From assembly GCA_003140075.1 (NCBI GenBank), contig PLIO01000088.1:647-41553 (forward strand): a stretch of 40,907 nucleotides of DNA. Direction: 5' to 3'. The notes below the pieces were generated by a model that saw nothing but the letters and a program-made list of their open reading frames with translations, was not told the DNA's origin and did no database searches. Source of the stretch: Acidobacteriaceae bacterium. Its GTDB lineage: Bacteria; Acidobacteriota; Terriglobia; Terriglobales; Acidobacteriaceae. This document shows, in pieces, positions 20,429 to 36,279 of this stretch (within the stretch, counting starts at the first letter, position 1; each line of letters begins with the position of its first letter). The position numbers were made by a program, and so were the translations under genes.

Positions 20429-20773
20429 GTCAGGAGGCTCGCTCGCGCGGGAAAGCGGTCGCGCAATACGCGGAGGCAGCCGAACGGGAGCGGGTGCTGG
20501 AACACGTGGCTTCCCTGCCGAGTCCGAGCCATTGGTTCTCTTTCGCCCCTTCGGGGCTTCTTCGCGTTCTGCTTCGCCACCCACGGCTTGCGCCGTGGGC
20601 TGCATTCTTGCGCCGCTTCGCGGCTGAACAGTCTGAAGTTTGGTACACCTTTCGCATTGTTATCCGACTATAGAACGTGCTCGGATTGGGCCCTCTTACG
20701 TCGCGGTTGAACACTCGCGCTTTCAATGGCCTTACCACGTGGCTTCTCGTATTTGTGAACCTCGCGATATCCA
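20429..20773. other. Gene-free 345-bp region between two PTPS genes
   Basis: Palindromic repeats dominate: GCCCC-TTC-GGGGC (20545-20557), CCCACGGC-TTGC-GCCGTGGG (20580-20599) and GCCGC-TTC-GCGGC (20612-20624), an acidobacterial-style chain of hairpins. The rest holds no plausible gene. Confidence 0.55.
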
Positions 20774-28747: not shown

Positions 28748-30952
28748 TCAGTGCTGGTTGAAGAGCTCGGTGCGGTCGATGCGTTCGCCCTTGAAAACGA
28801 CTAATGAGATTCGCTCGGTAGCGGTGATGTCCTCAAGAGGATTTCCGTCGACGACGAGGAGATCGGCATCGTTGCCGGGACGGATGGAGCCGGTGTGGTC
28901 GTCGACGCGAAGCAGACGAGCCGCGTTCCAGGTTGCGGCCTGCAAGGCTACAGCGGGCGGGATGCCGGCCTGCACCCAGAGTTGAACTTCATGCTGCACG
29001 GTCGGACCGTGGATTACGAGATAGTTCCCGGCGTCGCTGCCGGTGACGAGTAATACGCCGTGCTCGTGGGCGCGCTTGAGGTTGTCGATGGCGATCGACA
29101 TATTGATGGGATACTGCGCGAGACCTTTGCGCATGGGCTCGGTCTCGGCGGAGCCCAGGGCTTCTTCGGTGCCGCGCAAGAGGTCCGGTGGGCCGACTTG
29201 TTGCACCAGGGAGCGCTTGAGCAGATCGGTCTTGCCGGCAGCGAAGTCCTGGAACGCCTCGCCGACGCTCAGAGTTGGATCGTAGAAAGTTCCCTGCTTG
29301 GCCATCTGGTCGAAGAGCGCGTCGGGAATTTTTTCGCGAAAAGATCCGTGCTCGATCGAATTCGCTTGTTCTTGCACTGCGTCCGTGACGTCGCGGACGT
29401 CTCCGGTGTGAACGGCGAGGGGCAACGAATCGGCATGAGCTTCCTGAGCGACGGCGTCAAACAAAGCGGTATCGAGCCGGTTGAAGACCTGGCCTCCGGC
29501 GCCGGCTTCGAGAATGGCTTTGACGCAATCCACGCCGCGCTTTTTTAGTTCATCGACCTGAAGGCGGGCTTCGGCAGCGGTCGCGGGAAGACGCAGATTT
29601 TGTTTTTCGAGATTCGCGCGAACCGATGGCGGCAGATTCTTGAAGTATTCGGTACCGTGGCCGCCGGGCGTCGTGAACATCGGGCCGCAGGTGGATAACT
29701 CCGAGCCGAGATATTCGCCGCTGGCCACGGTTGAGCGAATCTTGAGAATTCCGTCCAGGTCGTCGCCGACGCTTCGCACAGTAGTTACGCCGCTGTAGAG
29801 ATAGGCGGCGAGATGGCGCAGCATACTTTTCTGCGGGTCTTCGTTATTGTCATTCGAGTCCGTGTAGAATCCGCCCGGCGCTTGCAGGTGAACGTGAACA
29901 TCGATGAGGCCGGGAAGGATGGTCTTGCCGGCGGCTTCCACGGTTTCGGCTTTCAGAGTCTTGGGGTCGGGGCCGTCGCCTTCGAAGATCTCGGCGATCT
30001 TGCCGCCGCGCACTAACACCGAGCCGTTCTCGATCACCTTGCCGTCGCCAATGAAAATGCGCGCGCCGCGAATCAGAAACGTGTCACTGCGGGCGAGTTG
30101 CCGGTTCAAGATTTTTGTTTTGACGATGCCGGTGCGGGCATGCACTTGCCACAACCCCAGCACCAGGAATGGGGTGAGCACGGCCGCGAGCCACAGCTTG
30201 GCCGAGGCTCGAATCTTCTCTTCTTTTTCCCAGCGGAACAGCTTGAAGCCGATAAAGAGTCCAACCAGGCCGGTTACCAACAGAGCGAGGGTGGGCTGAA
30301 GATTGGCGGCGATGCCTTCGTGCCGCAGCAGCATGCCCTGGATGCCGGTGACCATGTAGGTGGCGGGAACAAACTGCGTGATGACCAGCAGCCACGGCGG
30401 AAACATGGCGAGTGGGAAGGTCGCGCCGCTCAGAAACAGCATGGGAAGGTAAATCAACTGGACGACGAGCTGGCTTTCCTGCATCGAGTTGACGACGGAA
30501 GCGATGATCAGGCCGATGGCACGAAAGCCGACGATAGCGATGCTAATGAAGACCAGGATGGAAACCATCGACTGCGGCCAGGGCATGCCATATAAAAAAT
30601 GGGCCAGCGTGAAGATGAGAATCACGTTGGGCATATAGAGAATCCAGCCGGTGACGACGGAAGCGATGAGCAGAGGAGCCGGCGAGATCGGCGTGACTTT
30701 GTAGCGGCGCAGGATGTTGGCTTCGCGTTCCTGCACGGCGCGGATCCCGGCGCCGAAAAGTCCGTTGCCGAGGATGCCGATGATGAGGACCATGGCAATC
30801 ACCATGGTCATGGCGGCGCCGCGTTCGGCGTGCATCGCCTGCCCGAAGATGAAGAAGAAAACCAGCGGAAACAGGTAGTTGAAGAAAATTACAGACCGGT
30901 TGCGTAGAGCCAGCTTGAGATCGAGCGCGATGAGTGCTTTGTAGGGTTTCAT
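28748..30952 (-). CDS. ABC-2 type permease fused to a metal-dependent amidohydrolase
   Basis: One uninterrupted 734-residue frame. Residues 1-245 are an ABC-2 exporter permease with six TM segments (NYLFPLVFFFIFG; ILGNGLFGAGIRAVQERE; PMLFLSGATFP). Residues ~252-270 add a seventh hydrophobic segment (LWLAAVLTPFLVLGLW). Residues ~290-730 are an imidazolonepropionase-like amidohydrolase with the full metal set: HVH (353-355), Lys478, His515, His535 and Asp640. The ATPase gene lies 36 bp upstream in the same direction. With N-terminus inside and seven passes, the hydrolase would face the periplasm, but this topology is inference. No frameshift or internal ribosome-binding site is needed. Confidence 0.85.
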   Translation of the reverse strand: MKPYKALIALDLKLALRNRSVIFFNYLFPLVFFFIFGQAMHAERGAAMTMVIAMVLIIGILGNGLFGAGIRAVQEREANILRRYKVTPISPAPLLIASVVTGWILYMPNVILIFTLAHFLYGMPWPQSMVSILVFISIAIVGFRAIGLIIASVVNSMQESQLVVQLIYLPMLFLSGATFPLAMFPPWLLVITQFVPATYMVTGIQGMLLRHEGIAANLQPTLALLVTGLVGLFIGFKLFRWEKEEKIRASAKLWLAAVLTPFLVLGLWQVHARTGIVKTKILNRQLARSDTFLIRGARIFIGDGKVIENGSVLVRGGKIAEIFEGDGPDPKTLKAETVEAAGKTILPGLIDVHVHLQAPGGFYTDSNDNNEDPQKSMLRHLAAYLYSGVTTVRSVGDDLDGILKIRSTVASGEYLGSELSTCGPMFTTPGGHGTEYFKNLPPSVRANLEKQNLRLPATAAEARLQVDELKKRGVDCVKAILEAGAGGQVFNRLDTALFDAVAQEAHADSLPLAVHTGDVRDVTDAVQEQANSIEHGSFREKIPDALFDQMAKQGTFYDPTLSVGEAFQDFAAGKTDLLKRSLVQQVGPPDLLRGTEEALGSAETEPMRKGLAQYPINMSIAIDNLKRAHEHGVLLVTGSDAGNYLVIHGPTVQHEVQLWVQAGIPPAVALQAATWNAARLLRVDDHTGSIRPGNDADLLVVDGNPLEDITATERISLVVFKGERIDRTELFNQH

Positions 30953-32156: not shown

Positions 32157-32603
32157 ATGCCGATGCCCAAGGTTATCGAACAGGAAGTGTCTGTACTGAC
32201 CTCGTCGAAAGACGGCTTGGTTTATCTGACGCCCAACGATTGGGCGCTCATTGTCGACAAGGCTTGCCGGGTCGCTTTTCGGAAGGGCCAAGTTCTGGTC
32301 CATCGGGGCAAGAGAACCAACGGCGTCTATCTGCTGGTGAAAGGAACGGCTCGGGTACAAATCGCTGCCCAGGCCGGCTCACCGGAGATCGGGCCGGGTG
32401 AGATTTGCGGCGAAATGTCATTTCTGGAGGACGCTCCGGCCAGCGCCAATGTGGTTGCCGATAATGACGTGGAAGCCTATCACTTGGATCGGCCCACCCT
32501 GGAGAGCCTGTTCGAGCTTTTTCCTCACCTCGCCTCGCGTTTTTACAGGTCGCTGGCCATGAATTTATCCCGCCGACTCAGAGACTTGATCGAGCAGCCG
32601 TGA
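32157..32603 (+). CDS. Cyclic-nucleotide-binding-fold protein without HTH
   Basis: From ATG 32157 the product is 148 residues. It is a single cNMP-binding beta-roll: YLTPNDWALIVDKACRVAF, KGQVLVHRGKRTNGVYLLVKG and GEICGEMSFLEDAPASANVV, then helices to LSRRLRDLIEQP. The phosphate-binding cassette lacks the usual Arg-Ser (here APASA), so cAMP/cGMP binding is doubtful. No DNA-binding domain or effector is attached. It is divergent from the ABC operon, with 238 bp between the starts. Confidence 0.8.
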   Translation: MPMPKVIEQEVSVLTSSKDGLVYLTPNDWALIVDKACRVAFRKGQVLVHRGKRTNGVYLLVKGTARVQIAAQAGSPEIGPGEICGEMSFLEDAPASANVVADNDVEAYHLDRPTLESLFELFPHLASRFYRSLAMNLSRRLRDLIEQP

Positions 32604-32962: not shown

Positions 32963-32988
32963 ATTAGTGTGCAGTGGTTTGCAGCTTC
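32963..32988 (+). promoter_or_regulatory. Upstream activator-like element of PEP-CTERM gene 1
   Basis: ATTAGTGTGCA-GTGG-TTTGCA-GCTTC. The same 26-bp element, with four mismatches, occurs at 33858-33883 before the second PEP-CTERM gene. Two TGCA half sites lie 6 bp apart. The distance from its first base to the GG of the promoter is 96 bp, in the usual range for sigma-54 activator sites. Confidence 0.65.
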
Positions 32989-33057
32989 ATTTTGGTAAGT
33001 TTGCATCAACTTTCTATTAACATGCCTGTAATCAGTAACTTAGTAATTGTTCACGTT

Positions 33058-33073
33058 TGGCATCATGGGTGCA
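33058..33073 (+). promoter_or_regulatory. Sigma-54-like promoter of PEP-CTERM gene 1
   Basis: TTTGGCAT...GTGCA: GG at 33059-33060 and GC at 33071-33072 are exactly 10 bp apart (GG-N10-GC). TGGCAT matches 5 of 6 of the -24 consensus. The matching promoter at gene 2 strengthens the call. Confidence 0.65.
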
Positions 33074-33162
33074 TAAGACATAAGGACGGCGCAGGCGTAT
33101 TTGGTGCCCTCGACGAACGATAACAAAACAGGCTTTAGCTCAGGTTCAGGAGGAAGACAGTC

Positions 33163-33777
33163 ATGAAGCGCGTAATTTTGATGGCTCTACTTGCTATGGC
33201 TCTGCCTTTGGCTGCATTTGCCGACAATTCAACGGATTTCACAAACAGCGGTGGCACTCTGGCTGGGAGTTCCGCGGGTTTGAGCTTGTCGGGTTCTGAA
33301 CTCATCGCTGTCGATGGGCTCGGCGGAGGCGGTCTTATCACTGGCGGCCTCGGGAGCGTGAGCTTTTCTACTGGGGCGCTAGCCACAGGCAGCCTGCAGA
33401 TGGGCGGGACCTTCGATGGTGGCGGGAGCTTCCTCATCACCGGCAACGGCACGAACGGAGTTCCGACCGGAACGATCTTCACCGGCTCTTTTACCGGTCC
33501 GGTTACCTGGACTCTGGTTACGCTCGCCAACGGCACGCACAATTACACCCTGACGGGATCGATCACCGGCCAGTGGTATGGCACCGGGCCGTCGGTGTTT
33601 GGCGCAACCGTGCAGTTGACCATCAACACGGGCAAGGGCTTCTTTAACGGAAGCACGACGATCTCCAGCGGCGACACCAATATCGGCGGCACTGTTCCCG
33701 AACCTGGCACGCTGGGATTGCTCGGAACCGGGCTGGTTGGCCTGGCCGGAGCTCTGCACCGCAAGCTGAAAGCATAA
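33163..33777 (+). CDS. PEP-CTERM sorting-domain protein 1
   Basis: The 204-residue secreted protein starts MKRVILMALLAMALPLAAFA (signal peptide), followed by a Gly/Thr/Ser-rich beta domain (GGSFLITGNGTNGVPTGTIF, GPVTWTLVTLANGTHNY). It ends VPEPGTLGLLGTGLVGLAGA plus the basic tail HRKLKA, the exosortase recognition signal. Exosortase would cut it and the product is exported, often with exopolysaccharide. It is about 50% similar by eye to gene 2, which is 293 bp away. AGGAGG lies before the ATG. Confidence 0.92.
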   Translation: MKRVILMALLAMALPLAAFADNSTDFTNSGGTLAGSSAGLSLSGSELIAVDGLGGGGLITGGLGSVSFSTGALATGSLQMGGTFDGGGSFLITGNGTNGVPTGTIFTGSFTGPVTWTLVTLANGTHNYTLTGSITGQWYGTGPSVFGATVQLTINTGKGFFNGSTTISSGDTNIGGTVPEPGTLGLLGTGLVGLAGALHRKLKA

Positions 33778-33800
33778 TTCACTTAATCCCGTCTCCTGAA

Positions 33801-33826
33801 AGCCCCGCCTTGTGCGGGGCTTTTGC
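33801..33826 (+). terminator. Rho-independent terminator after PEP-CTERM gene 1
   Basis: AGCCCCGC-CTTGT-GCGGGGCT is followed by TTTG. It begins 24 bp after the stop codon. Confidence 0.85.
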
Positions 33827-33857
33827 TTTGCTGGTTCAAGCGCTGCCAATTTGCACA

Positions 33858-33883
33858 ATTAGTGTGCACCGCTTTGCAACTTC
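33858..33883 (+). promoter_or_regulatory. Upstream activator-like element of PEP-CTERM gene 2
   Basis: ATTAGTGTGCA-CCGC-TTTGCA-ACTTC, 22 of 26 positions shared with the element before gene 1 and lying 95 bp (versus 96) from the promoter GG. A further TTTGCAC sits at 33850. Confidence 0.65.
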
Positions 33884-33951
33884 CGATTCGTCATCTCCCC
33901 TGCTGTTGGTTTAACCACCAGTTAAATAGGCAACTTACATTTTCCATGGTT

Positions 33952-33967
33952 TGGCATGCCAGATGCT
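33952..33967 (+). promoter_or_regulatory. Sigma-54-like promoter of PEP-CTERM gene 2
   Basis: TTTGGCAT...ATGCT: GG at 33953-33954 and GC at 33965-33966, again exactly GG-N10-GC, with the same TTTGGCAT start as the promoter at 33058. It lies about 105 bp before the start codon, as in gene 1. Confidence 0.6.
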
Positions 33968-34070
33968 CTGAGCGCTGCAGCGCAGGTGTTTGGCCCCGCC
34001 AGAGGAACCCTCAAAGCACTTCAAATCTCTCCGAACCTTGGGTTTCTCAACATACGTTCAGGAGGTTGCC

Positions 34071-34652
34071 ATGAAGCGATTCGTTTTGCTGGCTTTACTG
34101 GCTCTGGCTTTACCGCTCTCAGCTTTTGCCAACACATGGGATTTCACTAACATTAACGGCGCCCTTGCGGGAAATGCTTTGGGCATGAGCCTTGTCGGCT
34201 CTAATGTCATCAATATCGACGGCCCCGGTCTGTTTGCTTGTCCTTGTACTGAGAGCTTTACAACAGGCCCGGGCCTGCCCCCCTTCCCCATAAATCTGAA
34301 TTTGCCTACCGTGTTCGCGGCCGGCATACTACCCTTCACGATCGTCGGCGGCAACTTTATTTTTGACGGCGTGTTCACCAGCCCAGTTATCTGGACTCCG
34401 GAGGGAGGGGACATTTACCAGCTCTCAGGTTATGTCTCCGGCACGTTGGCACTCCCAGGGGGGATACAGAAAGTAAACGGCTTCACTTCACAACTTTACT
34501 TCGGGACGGTTGGGCCGAACGGCTACACGTTTTCTGGCACACTCGGTAGCGGCGATACCATTCTCTCCACTCCCGAGCCCGGCACTCTTGGCTTGCTCGG
34601 GACCGGGCTGGTTGGATTGGCTGGAATTGTTCGCAAAAAGCTGAAAACCTGA
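34071..34652 (+). CDS. PEP-CTERM sorting-domain protein 2
   Basis: From ATG 34071, preceded by AGGAGG, the product is 193 residues. It has a signal peptide (MKRFVLLALLALALPLSAFA), a beta-rich middle domain with FACPCTESF (two cysteines, absent from protein 1), VGGNFIFDGVFTSPVIWTPEG and YTFSGTLGSGDTI, and the sorting signal TPEPGTLGLLGTGLVGLAGI with basic tail VRKKLKT. It is a diverged duplicate of protein 1, with the same GALAGNALGMSLVGSNVI-like opening. The exosortase itself is not in the window. Confidence 0.92.
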   Translation: MKRFVLLALLALALPLSAFANTWDFTNINGALAGNALGMSLVGSNVINIDGPGLFACPCTESFTTGPGLPPFPINLNLPTVFAAGILPFTIVGGNFIFDGVFTSPVIWTPEGGDIYQLSGYVSGTLALPGGIQKVNGFTSQLYFGTVGPNGYTFSGTLGSGDTILSTPEPGTLGLLGTGLVGLAGIVRKKLKT

Positions 34653-34674
34653 GTTCGCTCTACCGCCTCTCGAG

Positions 34675-34700
34675 AGCCCCGCTGTGCGCGGGGCTTTTTT
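34675..34700 (+). terminator. Rho-independent terminator after PEP-CTERM gene 2
   Basis: AGCCCCG-CTGTGCG-CGGGGCT followed by TTTTT. Nearly the same stem as the terminator at 33801, so it was probably duplicated with the gene. Confidence 0.88.
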
Positions 34701-34832: not shown

Positions 34833-35096
34833 ATGAAAGATATTCATGAGGTGTTACGACAGAAACAGACCAAGTACGCCGCACTGGGCAAGCAGATCGA
34901 GATGCTGCAGCAGGCGGCGGAGAAGCTGCGTGAAGTGGCTCCCTTGCTCGCCGAAAATGACGACGAAGACAACGCCGTTTTGATGGAAGACGACGCTTCG
35001 CCGGTCGCTGACGCCATGGCCGCGAAAGCGGGTGCGGGTAGTTCGGGTGCAACCGCATCCAAGGCAGCCCGGCCCACGGCGCCGCGTTGGCCGTAG
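34833..35096 (+). CDS. Small coiled-coil hypothetical protein
   Basis: The 87-residue protein has an N-terminal heptad-like helix (IHEVLRQKQTKYAALGKQIEMLQQAAEKLREV) and an acidic, Ala/Gly-rich disordered tail (AENDDEDNAVLMEDD, ASKAARPTAPRWP). GGGGGTCGT precedes the ATG as a possible ribosome-binding site. It ends 31 bp before the PilZ gene start, so the two are probably co-transcribed. Family unknown; acidobacterial genomes often have such a gene before PilZ proteins, but I cannot confirm this here. Confidence 0.7.
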   Translation: MKDIHEVLRQKQTKYAALGKQIEMLQQAAEKLREVAPLLAENDDEDNAVLMEDDASPVADAMAAKAGAGSSGATASKAARPTAPRWP

Positions 35097-35127
35097 TCTT
35101 GCCGCTTTCTGGGCGGGGAATTTAGTT

Positions 35128-36279
35128 ATGACCCTACTGGCATTGCTGATTTCCACTGACGATTCCGCTTCCGAGATCCTGGGCCGGACTTTGCCGGCCG
35201 CCGGGATCGCGGTGGAGCGTTTCAGCGATCTCACTGCGGCGATCGATCGCCTTCAGCAGCAAAGGTTCGACGCGCTTATTCTCGATTACGAAGACGCGAA
35301 GGCCGCTGGCGAAGTCTTCGACGAGGCGCGAAGGTTGAACTCTGGGAGCGCACCCGTCACCGTGGCCTTGGTGGCGGAGCAGGCCAGAGTACGGGATATT
35401 CTGACCGGCGGGGTGCATTTCGTACTGTACAAGCCTCTTTCCGAAGAAAAAGCCAAAGCCGGCCTGCGCGCGGTGACCGCCTTGTTGAACCGCGAGCGTC
35501 GCCGCGCTTACCGCGTCCCCGTGCAGGCTCCAGTGGAACTCACCCTGCCAGATAGTCGCAAAGCCGAGGGAATTCTGCTTGACCTCAGCGAGACGGGCAT
35601 GGACGTTCTGACCGCCGAATCTCAGACCCCGGGATCGCTGCTGAATTTCCGTTTCCATTTGCCCGACGGAAGTCTTGAAATCCAGGCGCACGGCCAGGTG
35701 GCATGGGCGAACCCCAACGGGCAAACGGGAGTGCACTTTCTGGACTTGGACGACTCCGTCAAGGGTCATCTCCAAGTGTGGTTGCTCGCGGCCGCCTCGG
35801 TTCAACGTGCTGGCGAGGAGGAAATCGTTCCTCACTGCAAGCTTACCGATCTGAGTTTGGGCGGATGCTACGTGGAAACCGATTCGCCATTTCCCGAACA
35901 CGCCTTGGTCGACCTATGCCTGAAAACTGAAGAGATAGCAGTCCACACGGAAGGCATGGTGCGGGTTACGCACCCGGGTCGTGGCATGGGAGTGGAATTC
36001 CCTTCCCGCACGCCGGAGCAGCGCGCCCAGGTAGGCAATCTGATCAGCCTTCTGCGTAGTTTTCCCGCGTCCACGCCGGAACTGAGTGTTTCTCCGCGAT
36101 CCCTGACTGCGGACCTGAGCCAATTTGAATCCGCTCCAGAGGCTGCGAGCGCCACCGCGGAAGAGGGAGACCTGGAAGATCCTCTGCTCGACCTGCTGCG
36201 GCAGGCCGCTACAATGCAGCAGGACGCATTCCTCGAAGAACTTCGCCGCCAGCGATCCGGCGAGAGCGTCGCAACGTAG
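35128..36279 (+). CDS. Receiver-like domain protein with two PilZ domains
   Basis: From ATG 35128 the product is 383 residues. Residues 1-120 resemble a response-regulator fold (LLALLISTDDSASEILGRTL, LILDYEDA, FVLYKPLSEEKAKA), although the phosphoacceptor Asp is not certain. The first PilZ domain (~122-225) has RRRAYRVPV and DLSETGMDV, the RxxxR and DxSxxG motifs that bind c-di-GMP. A second PilZ-like domain (~230-325) has LTDLSLGGCYVET but a poor RxxxR, so it may not bind. The C-terminus is acidic and helical. A c-di-GMP-responsive switch is likely. Confidence 0.88.
   Translation: MTLLALLISTDDSASEILGRTLPAAGIAVERFSDLTAAIDRLQQQRFDALILDYEDAKAAGEVFDEARRLNSGSAPVTVALVAEQARVRDILTGGVHFVLYKPLSEEKAKAGLRAVTALLNRERRRAYRVPVQAPVELTLPDSRKAEGILLDLSETGMDVLTAESQTPGSLLNFRFHLPDGSLEIQAHGQVAWANPNGQTGVHFLDLDDSVKGHLQVWLLAAASVQRAGEEEIVPHCKLTDLSLGGCYVETDSPFPEHALVDLCLKTEEIAVHTEGMVRVTHPGRGMGVEFPSRTPEQRAQVGNLISLLRSFPASTPELSVSPRSLTADLSQFESAPEAASATAEEGDLEDPLLDLLRQAATMQQDAFLEELRRQRSGESVAT

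Follow-up and report, generated by a model that had tools for sequence, protein, structure and literature searches.

Sigma-54-type promoters with a conserved upstream dyad at PEP-CTERM genes of an uncultured acidobacterium, and candidate activators other than PrsR

Two neighbouring PEP-CTERM genes of an uncultured acidobacterium, probably of the genus Ca. Sulfotelmatobacter, are each preceded by an exact -24/-12 box of the sigma-54 type and by the dyad TGTGCA-N4-TTTGCA, which begins 89-90 bp 5' of that box. The likeness of element and box between the two genes is far beyond chance, and the same arrangement recurs at PEP-CTERM genes of relatives. The explanation preferred here, with a probability of about 0.6, is that these are sigma-54 promoters whose dyad would be bound by an enhancer-binding protein (bEBP), and that the activator is most likely encoded at the prsT locus and is not PrsR.

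The two genes and the anatomy of their promoters

The window, that is, the whole stretch of 40,907 nucleotides that was analysed, lies on contig C257 of a draft genome of 5.77 Mb. PEP-CTERM gene 1 (33163..33777, + strand) encodes a protein of 204 aa with a signal-peptide-like N-terminus and the tail VPEPGTLGLLGTGLVGLAG (PF07589, 29 bits against a cut-off of 20.7), and gene 2 (34071..34652, + strand) encodes one of 193 aa (26.1 bits against the same cut-off of 20.7). The proteins are 49% identical (alignment A1) and the genes are adjacent tandem paralogues. Each has its own upstream region and a terminator-like hairpin behind it, at 33807..33820 (+) between the genes and at 34672..34698 (+) 3' of gene 2, although the three terminator-like sites of the region, compared with a mean of 2.6 in shuffled sequence, are weak evidence alone. 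A short PEP-CTERM tail gave no match when it was compared with plasmids. Other features of the window are a stand-alone cyclic-nucleotide-binding domain protein just 5' of the pair (32160-32603), a PilZ protein with a weak receiver match 3' of it (35032-36279), an Acido-Lenti-1 RNA at 20580-20625 (+; 51.4 bits, gathering score 37), and one ORF at 28748-30952 (-) that joins an ABC-2 transporter membrane domain and an amidohydrolase domain.

Upstream of gene 1, the 26-mer ATTAGTGTGCAGTGGTTTGCAGCTTC has its first base at 32963 and the box TTTGGCATCATGGGTGCA carries GG at 33059-33060 and GC at 33071-33072; upstream of gene 2, the 26-mer ATTAGTGTGCACCGCTTTGCAACTTC starts at 33858 and the box TTTGGCATGCCAGATGCT has GG at 33953-33954 and GC at 33965-33966. 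Direct reading of the letters confirmed what a preliminary description of this DNA had stated: the 26-bp elements are identical at 22 of 26 positions, GG-N10-GC is exact at both genes, and the distances from the start of the 26-mer to the GG are 96 and 95 bp. The enhancer-like elements were delimited as TTAGTGTGCAGTGGTTTGCA (32964..32983, +; dyad core TGTGCA-N4-TTTGCA at 32968-32983) for gene 1 and TTAGTGTGCACCGCTTTGCA (33859..33878, +; core at 33863-33878) for gene 2, and the GG-N10-GC boxes as TGGCATCATGGGTGCA (33058..33073, +) and TGGCATGCCAGATGCT (33952..33967, +), respectively. Scores for element and box were built from the window's own sequence and from the sigma-54 consensus. At both genes GG-N10-GC stands in a TGGCAY...TGC context, which is kept in the relatives, and the boxes are very likely sigma-54 promoters; the transcription starts would then be located near 33084 and near 33978. 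Gene 1 also has an IHF-like site, AATCAGTAACTTA (33030..33042, +), placed 28 bp 5' of the box and matching 8 of the 9 positions of the IHF consensus, WATCAANNNNTTR. The IHF-like site of gene 2 is poor.

In the mechanism proposed, genes 1 and 2 would form single-gene units, and sigma-54 RNA polymerase would transcribe each from its own -24/-12 box (33058 and 33952, respectively). A bEBP of the NtrC superfamily would bind TGTGCA-N4-TTTGCA, whose centre lies some 108 bp 5' of the transcription start; IHF or HU may bend the DNA of gene 1 at its IHF-like site, by which the bEBP would meet the polymerase and open it with its GAFTGA loop. Judged from the sequence, the dyad is very probably a bEBP site. 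The activator would not be PrsR, the most likely candidates being C38_5019, the response regulator C38_7889, or both, all from the prsT locus on contig C38.

Recurrence of the arrangement in the genome and the genus

In the 5.77 Mb genome, the pattern TTAGTGTGCANNNNTTTGCA has exactly two matches at 0 mismatches and none at 1 or 2; when up to 3 mismatches are allowed, 32 matches are found in the whole genome versus 21 for the reversed pattern. GTGTGCA followed 70-115 bp on by a GG-N10-GC box occurs at three places in about 163 kb (the window and seven other stretches of its genome). Two of these are the elements of genes 1 and 2, and the third precedes an unrelated PEP-CTERM gene of contig C148, with 90 bp from the start of the element to the box. 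The arrangement is thus present in three of the five PEP-CTERM genes of the genome that are over the cut-off and missing in two. A paralogue on contig C4 (locus L003), much like gene 1, has neither element nor box, and the divergent PEP-CTERM partner gene on C148 is without the element-plus-box arrangement. L143 and L159 have upstream sequences that are alike and of their own, different type.

When 45 genomes of the genus were searched with GTGTGCANNNNTTTGCA, 50 matches were obtained versus 8 with reversed controls. A downstream PEP-CTERM ORF is present in 22 of the 49 distinct contexts (21 by regular expression, L101 by inspection), and in 21 of these 22 the distance from the first letter of GTGTGCA to the box is 90-92 bp; the remaining one (L092) is broken by N. 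The other 27 contexts, with no PEP-CTERM ORF, show a box in two cases alone, at 86 and 88 bp. Because the reversed control (8) is smaller than the number of non-PEP-CTERM contexts (27), the short pattern alone is unspecific; adding the box confers specificity on it. The dyad at 11/12 or better was found only in the window and at an UpxY/bEBP-like locus on contig C95 within 302 kb of this genome's DNA near bEBPs, exosortases and PEP-CTERM genes. Across the phylum, the exact composite pattern is present in 3 of 396 genomes, namely the window's genome, G014 and G238; the former two are the only members of the genus in the sample, and the G238 match is taken as chance because there is no GC at -12. 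The pattern is so strict that this search says little on distant relatives.

The recurrence was further analysed in 115 PEP-CTERM-like ORFs, taken from the matches listed (61 genomes, 49 with a match) and not comprising all PEP-CTERM genes; the listed matches of G000-G036 were used, and those of other genomes only where the match came with its locus. Most of these ORFs are from Ca. Sulfotelmatobacter relatives, some ten belong to other genera, and a small number (e.g. the plus-strand ORF of L164) probably do not encode PEP-CTERM proteins at all. Element and box at 86-97 bp were found in 31 of the 55 ORFs of cluster 0, the window's family (family 1), one of which (L134) looks like chance, while 24 lack the arrangement by the strict test; in 10 of the 11 ORFs of cluster 2 (family 2), an unrelated PEP-CTERM family with an Arg/His-rich N-terminus; and in 1 of the remaining 49. 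Shuffled upstream regions gave means of 0.1 (cluster 0) and 0.05 (cluster 2), with a maximum of 1 over 20 rounds, in a shuffle that preserves dinucleotides only approximately. This recurrence in relatives, far above shuffles, supports the earlier reading that PEP-CTERM genes have promoters of the sigma-54 type and, 5' of these, an enhancer-like site under selection. On the opposite strand, matches number 1/55 in cluster 0, 0/11 in cluster 2, 11/26 in cluster 1 and 2/23 in the rest; a family-2 ORF stands opposite each of the 11 in cluster 1 and opposite one of the other three, which makes these matches family-2 promoters read from the reverse side. Within cluster 1, a subfamily chosen by eye (L145, L157, L161, L163, L166 and L175; 6 of 26) has a GG-N10-GC box and another dyad closer to it, e.g. 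GTGTGAAAACAGTTTCAT, with TGAAA-N4-TTTCA in four of the six.

In 29 non-redundant promoters of the window's family, the 12 core columns of the element carry 1.1-1.9 bits each and the box columns 1.22 bits on average, compared with 0.29 in the spacer, and the element starts 93-95 bp from the box in 28 of them. Element and box are 71-72% identical and the spacer 35%, which bears out the suggestion that these two parts are selected beyond the rest of the intergenic DNA. The profile of ten non-redundant family-2 promoters is as in family 1 (box columns about 1.2 bits each, spacer 0.29). The consensus of the element is TGTGCA-N4-TTTGCA in family 1 and TGTGCAAA-N4-TTGCAC, with a looser second half, in family 2. 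Since the flanks differ between the families, descent from one promoter is a poor account of the parts in common. An IHF-like site matching at least 8/9 of WATCAANNNNTTR is found in 16 of 31 window-family promoters, always 28 bp before the box, whereas 3.5% of base-shuffled spacers reach this score anywhere; it is found in 0/10 promoters of cluster 2. The IHF-like site, the second PEP-CTERM family, the two PEP-CTERM genes of this genome that lack the element and the absence of PrsR (below) go beyond the preliminary description.

PrsR, PrsK and the regulators of the prsT locus

The preliminary description had presented the element as a candidate PrsR-type site and had named rpoN, prsR, prsK and exosortase genes as those to be looked for. 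Two of these expectations hold: rpoN is encoded on contig C66 (TIGR02395, 312.8 bits against 277.35), and exosortase genes (PF09721) are found on C220 and C95. The C220 exosortase passes the XrtA cut-off (215.3 versus 208), and the neighbouring EPS proteins score on XrtA-system models without reaching the cut-offs of those models. PrsT is also encoded (TIGR02917, 327.2 bits versus 312.2), by a small margin and in a protein on which other TPR models score too; PrsT of the relative L227 reaches 353 bits. The claim of a PrsR-type site does not stand. No protein of the draft genome is over the TIGR02915 cut-off for PrsR (best 423.4 bits, cut-off 502.6), and the best TIGR02916 score for PrsK is 111 bits against 300. 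The 423-bit score is best read as background, at the level of ordinary NtrC-type regulators. PrsR over the cut-off was found in 0/5 genus relatives. Among 149 Acidobacteriota genomes, each scored for its ten best candidates, seven encode true PrsR (529-641 bits, the next best score being 461).

The PEP-CTERM genes of PrsR-bearing Acidobacteriota carry a different motif. In five such genomes (G105, G130, G180, G189 and G192), of the same phylum and with many PEP-CTERM genes having sigma-54-like boxes, 31 PEP-CTERM ORFs were parsed, of which 29 had the minimum of 150 upstream bases required for the count. The pattern TGTAAA-N5-TTTACA, derived from the upstream regions of PrsR-bearing genomes themselves, is present at 10/12 or better in 8 of the 29 (shuffled 0), and other regions have variants such as TGTCGG-N5-TTTACA; the Sulfotelmatobacter dyad at the same threshold was found in 0/29. 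In clusters 0 and 2 the counts are reversed, with TGTAAA-N5-TTTACA in 0/66 (0/55 and 0/11) and the dyad in 40/66, both at 10/12 or better. At 9/12, the former is found in 9/55 of family 1 (shuffled 11.8%), 0/11 of family 2 and 15/29 of the PrsR-bearing set (shuffled 17.2%). The PrsR site was rejected on the grounds of this other motif and of the absence, by cut-off, of PrsR and PrsK.

On contig C38, prsT adjoins regulators other than PrsK and PrsR, namely the bEBP C38_5019 and a pair formed by a kinase and the response-regulator bEBP C38_7889. C38_5019 has an AAA+ domain with GAFTGA and a Fis-type helix-turn-helix, like enhancer-binding proteins of the PspF/NifA/NtrC type, and is unlike that group, as compared, in having no receiver; it stays under the cut-off of each of the 23 NCBIfam families that it was listed with and therefore belongs to a lineage unnamed there. 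In the window's genome prsT and C38_5019 are 28 bp apart and no PEP-CTERM gene is present at that spot; in L218, L227, L228 and L229 the bEBP, a PEP-CTERM gene and then prsT are found within 5.6 kb. By tblastn, a C38_5019 orthologue lies directly upstream, on the same strand, of 9 of the 115 PEP-CTERM ORFs, 252-514 bp before the start. This is a lower bound, as the orthologue can be missed where the locus ends early, and L229 is a tenth such place. In eight of the nine ORFs, a sigma-54 box precedes the start by 109-122 bp. When the 23 bEBP-like proteins of the window's genome were compared with 151 PEP-CTERM loci, orthologues were found for C38_5019 alone (76-89% identity, 13 loci, three of which cover the same place a second time). 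A bEBP 43-44% like C44_4109 was observed near PEP-CTERM genes in L073 and L075, both without the arrangement.

Forms of the operator are found at the PEP-CTERM genes, at the kinase operon and at the UpxY locus. In L218 and L227, TGCGCAAACATTTTCAC stands before the C38_5019 orthologue and is nearly the element of the adjoining PEP-CTERM gene; the element variant beside C38_5019 is TGCGCA-N4-TTTTCA, which differs from the window's element. Between the bEBP and the kinase, the block AGTGCAAN2TTTTGCNACACTTGGGTAAT is conserved in all five aligned loci (the window's genome and four relatives). It matches 10/12 of the dyad with the same spacing and two core mismatches, and is placed just 5' of the conserved sigma-70-like promoter TTGACAA...CATACGAT of the kinase operon. 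As 10/12 matches are common (26 in 302 kb of this genome's sequence), the weight of this dyad rests on its conservation and its place. In their DNA-reading helices, C38_5019 and C38_7889 show 68% identity over 28 residues, for which reason the activator is taken to be one of them or both. From the sequence evidence, it is somewhat better than an even bet that a PrsT-linked bEBP activates the PEP-CTERM genes. Both proteins also have orthologues in G001 and G006, two genomes in which a search at E 0.001 revealed no PEP-CTERM motif; their occurrence therefore extends beyond PEP-CTERM genomes.

The helix WNR(K/R)xxAAxxLx(I/V)SY(K/R)(A/T)LLYK is common to C38_5019, C38_7889, C95_54740 and C220_26855, the last two of which are without the GAFTGA loop. 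Identity among the four is 46-68% over 28 residues, compared with a mean of 30% and a maximum of 54% to other bEBPs of the genome. Proteins of the C220_26855 type (NtrC-like AAA+, neither receiver nor GAFTGA) head an exosortase-linked EPS operon in two genomes (L047:8820-9857 (-); L397:6731-7717 (+)), in both of which the operon has a conserved sigma-54 box; of operator and box, only the box was seen there. C220_26855 was rejected as activator since the loop, missing in both genomes seen, is such that it can hardly open sigma-54 polymerase without it. C95_54740, a bEBP-like response regulator (L267 = contig C95), is encoded directly 3' of an UpxY-type antiterminator gene. Upstream of this locus the dyad GTGTGCAAGANTTTGCAC (GTGCGCAAGAGTTTGCAC in the window's genome) is conserved in three genomes (L267:885-3809, L085 and L194), as is a TTTTGGCA-N5-CCTGC box 474-496 bp beyond it. 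A small secreted protein with a PEP-CTERM-like tail, VPEGGTALLYVLLAGLCCAGAIVVRSRRKASLSETN, is encoded at L267:286-687 and has no Pfam or NCBIfam match at the limits used. A doubtful extension of the scheme is that another circuit replaces PrsK/PrsR around prsT, in which C38_5019 and C38_7889 would activate the PEP-CTERM genes and C220_26855 and C95_54740 would act as internal brakes through competition for the same operators.

Alternative explanations and known systems

The closest alternative keeps the sigma-54 promoters and assigns them to some other bEBP, for instance C44_4109 or C251_18852, which are response regulators with adjacent kinases, the PrsT-linked bEBPs then serving other genes. 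It is unlikely, at roughly one chance in four or five. About 20 bEBP-like proteins are encoded, and the presence or absence of bEBPs over five relatives (G001, G006, G011, G014 and G036) picks out no single activator, most response-regulator bEBPs being common to them; in this comparison 6 of the 20 listed matches of G036 were fetched and 3 of the 21 of G014 omitted, so that blanks there mean little. Against it stand the orthologues beside PEP-CTERM genes, found for C38_5019 alone, the dyad with the element's spacing at the kinase operon, and the restriction of the dyad at 11/12 or better to the window and the C95 UpxY/bEBP-like locus. A quite improbable reading is that the dyad is a repressor or CRP/FNR-type site that modulates the sigma-54 promoter, with the true enhancer elsewhere. 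Its half sites (TGTG...) resemble sites of the CRP type, and a cyclic-nucleotide-binding domain protein is encoded nearby; however, Pfam shows no DNA-binding domain in that ORF, bEBP-linked loci carry related dyads, and the position, the length and the fixed distance to IHF-like site and box suit a bEBP.

Hardly any weight is left for the dyad being a PrsR site, with a PrsR/PrsK pair working as in Proteobacteria: the layout described in Haft et al. 2006 (PMC1569441, portion drawn on here) and the presence of PrsT speak for it, but the window's genome and its five relatives lack the regulators by the cut-offs given above, and the clearly separated true PrsR elsewhere in Acidobacteriota goes with another motif. 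The possibility that the likeness is a functionless remnant of gene duplication is close to negligible. Genes 1 and 2 are indeed adjacent paralogues, but such a relic is refuted by the conservation pattern, in which element and box are kept while the spacers diverge, and by the same parts being present in an unrelated gene family. The sigma-54 promoters with a dyad bound by a bEBP of the prsT locus are thus preferred.

In the portion of Haft et al. 2006 used here (PMC1569441), a PEP-CTERM cis-regulatory motif is described from Proteobacteria only, and further PEP-CTERM regulators and DNA motifs, also beyond Proteobacteria, are said to be still to find. The window resembles that system in its single-gene PEP-CTERM units, in the upstream motif followed by the -24/-12 box, and in the PrsT encoded; the spacer of 72-74 nt, which depends on the assumed start of motif 2, is inside the published 32-92 nt, and the box-to-start distances of 89 and 103 nt are inside the ranges published there. 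It differs in that the motif is TGTGCA-N4-TTTGCA, whereas motif 1 of Haft has 17 nt and ends in TTTACA, in that no PrsR or PrsK is over the cut-off and regulators other than those of the Proteobacterial PrsK-PrsR-PrsT set are beside prsT, and in that the host is an acidobacterium with a fixed IHF-like site in half of the window's family. Because PrsR and PrsK are absent and the motif counts are reversed, the layout is the same but the operator is another and the activator of that system is missing. The RpoN1-dependent pepA of Aquincola tertiaricarbonis (PMC9850573, in the part consulted) is likewise a PEP-CTERM gene with a -24/-12 promoter, whose start was mapped in Aquincola; prsT is near pepA there and required for flocculation. 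That organism has PrsK/PrsR, unlike the window's genome; an enhancer sequence predicted earlier is mentioned in the same part, and the activator is likewise unproven there.

No report of the present motif was found in the published literature, in a search that covered few subscription journals. It adds one PEP-CTERM motif outside Proteobacteria, as foreseen in the portion of Haft et al. (PMC1569441) used here. With the motif, its spacing, its genus-wide footprint and two named candidate activators, the question becomes testable by one binding assay, and the results suggest that sigma-54 control of PEP-CTERM genes can pair with different activators.
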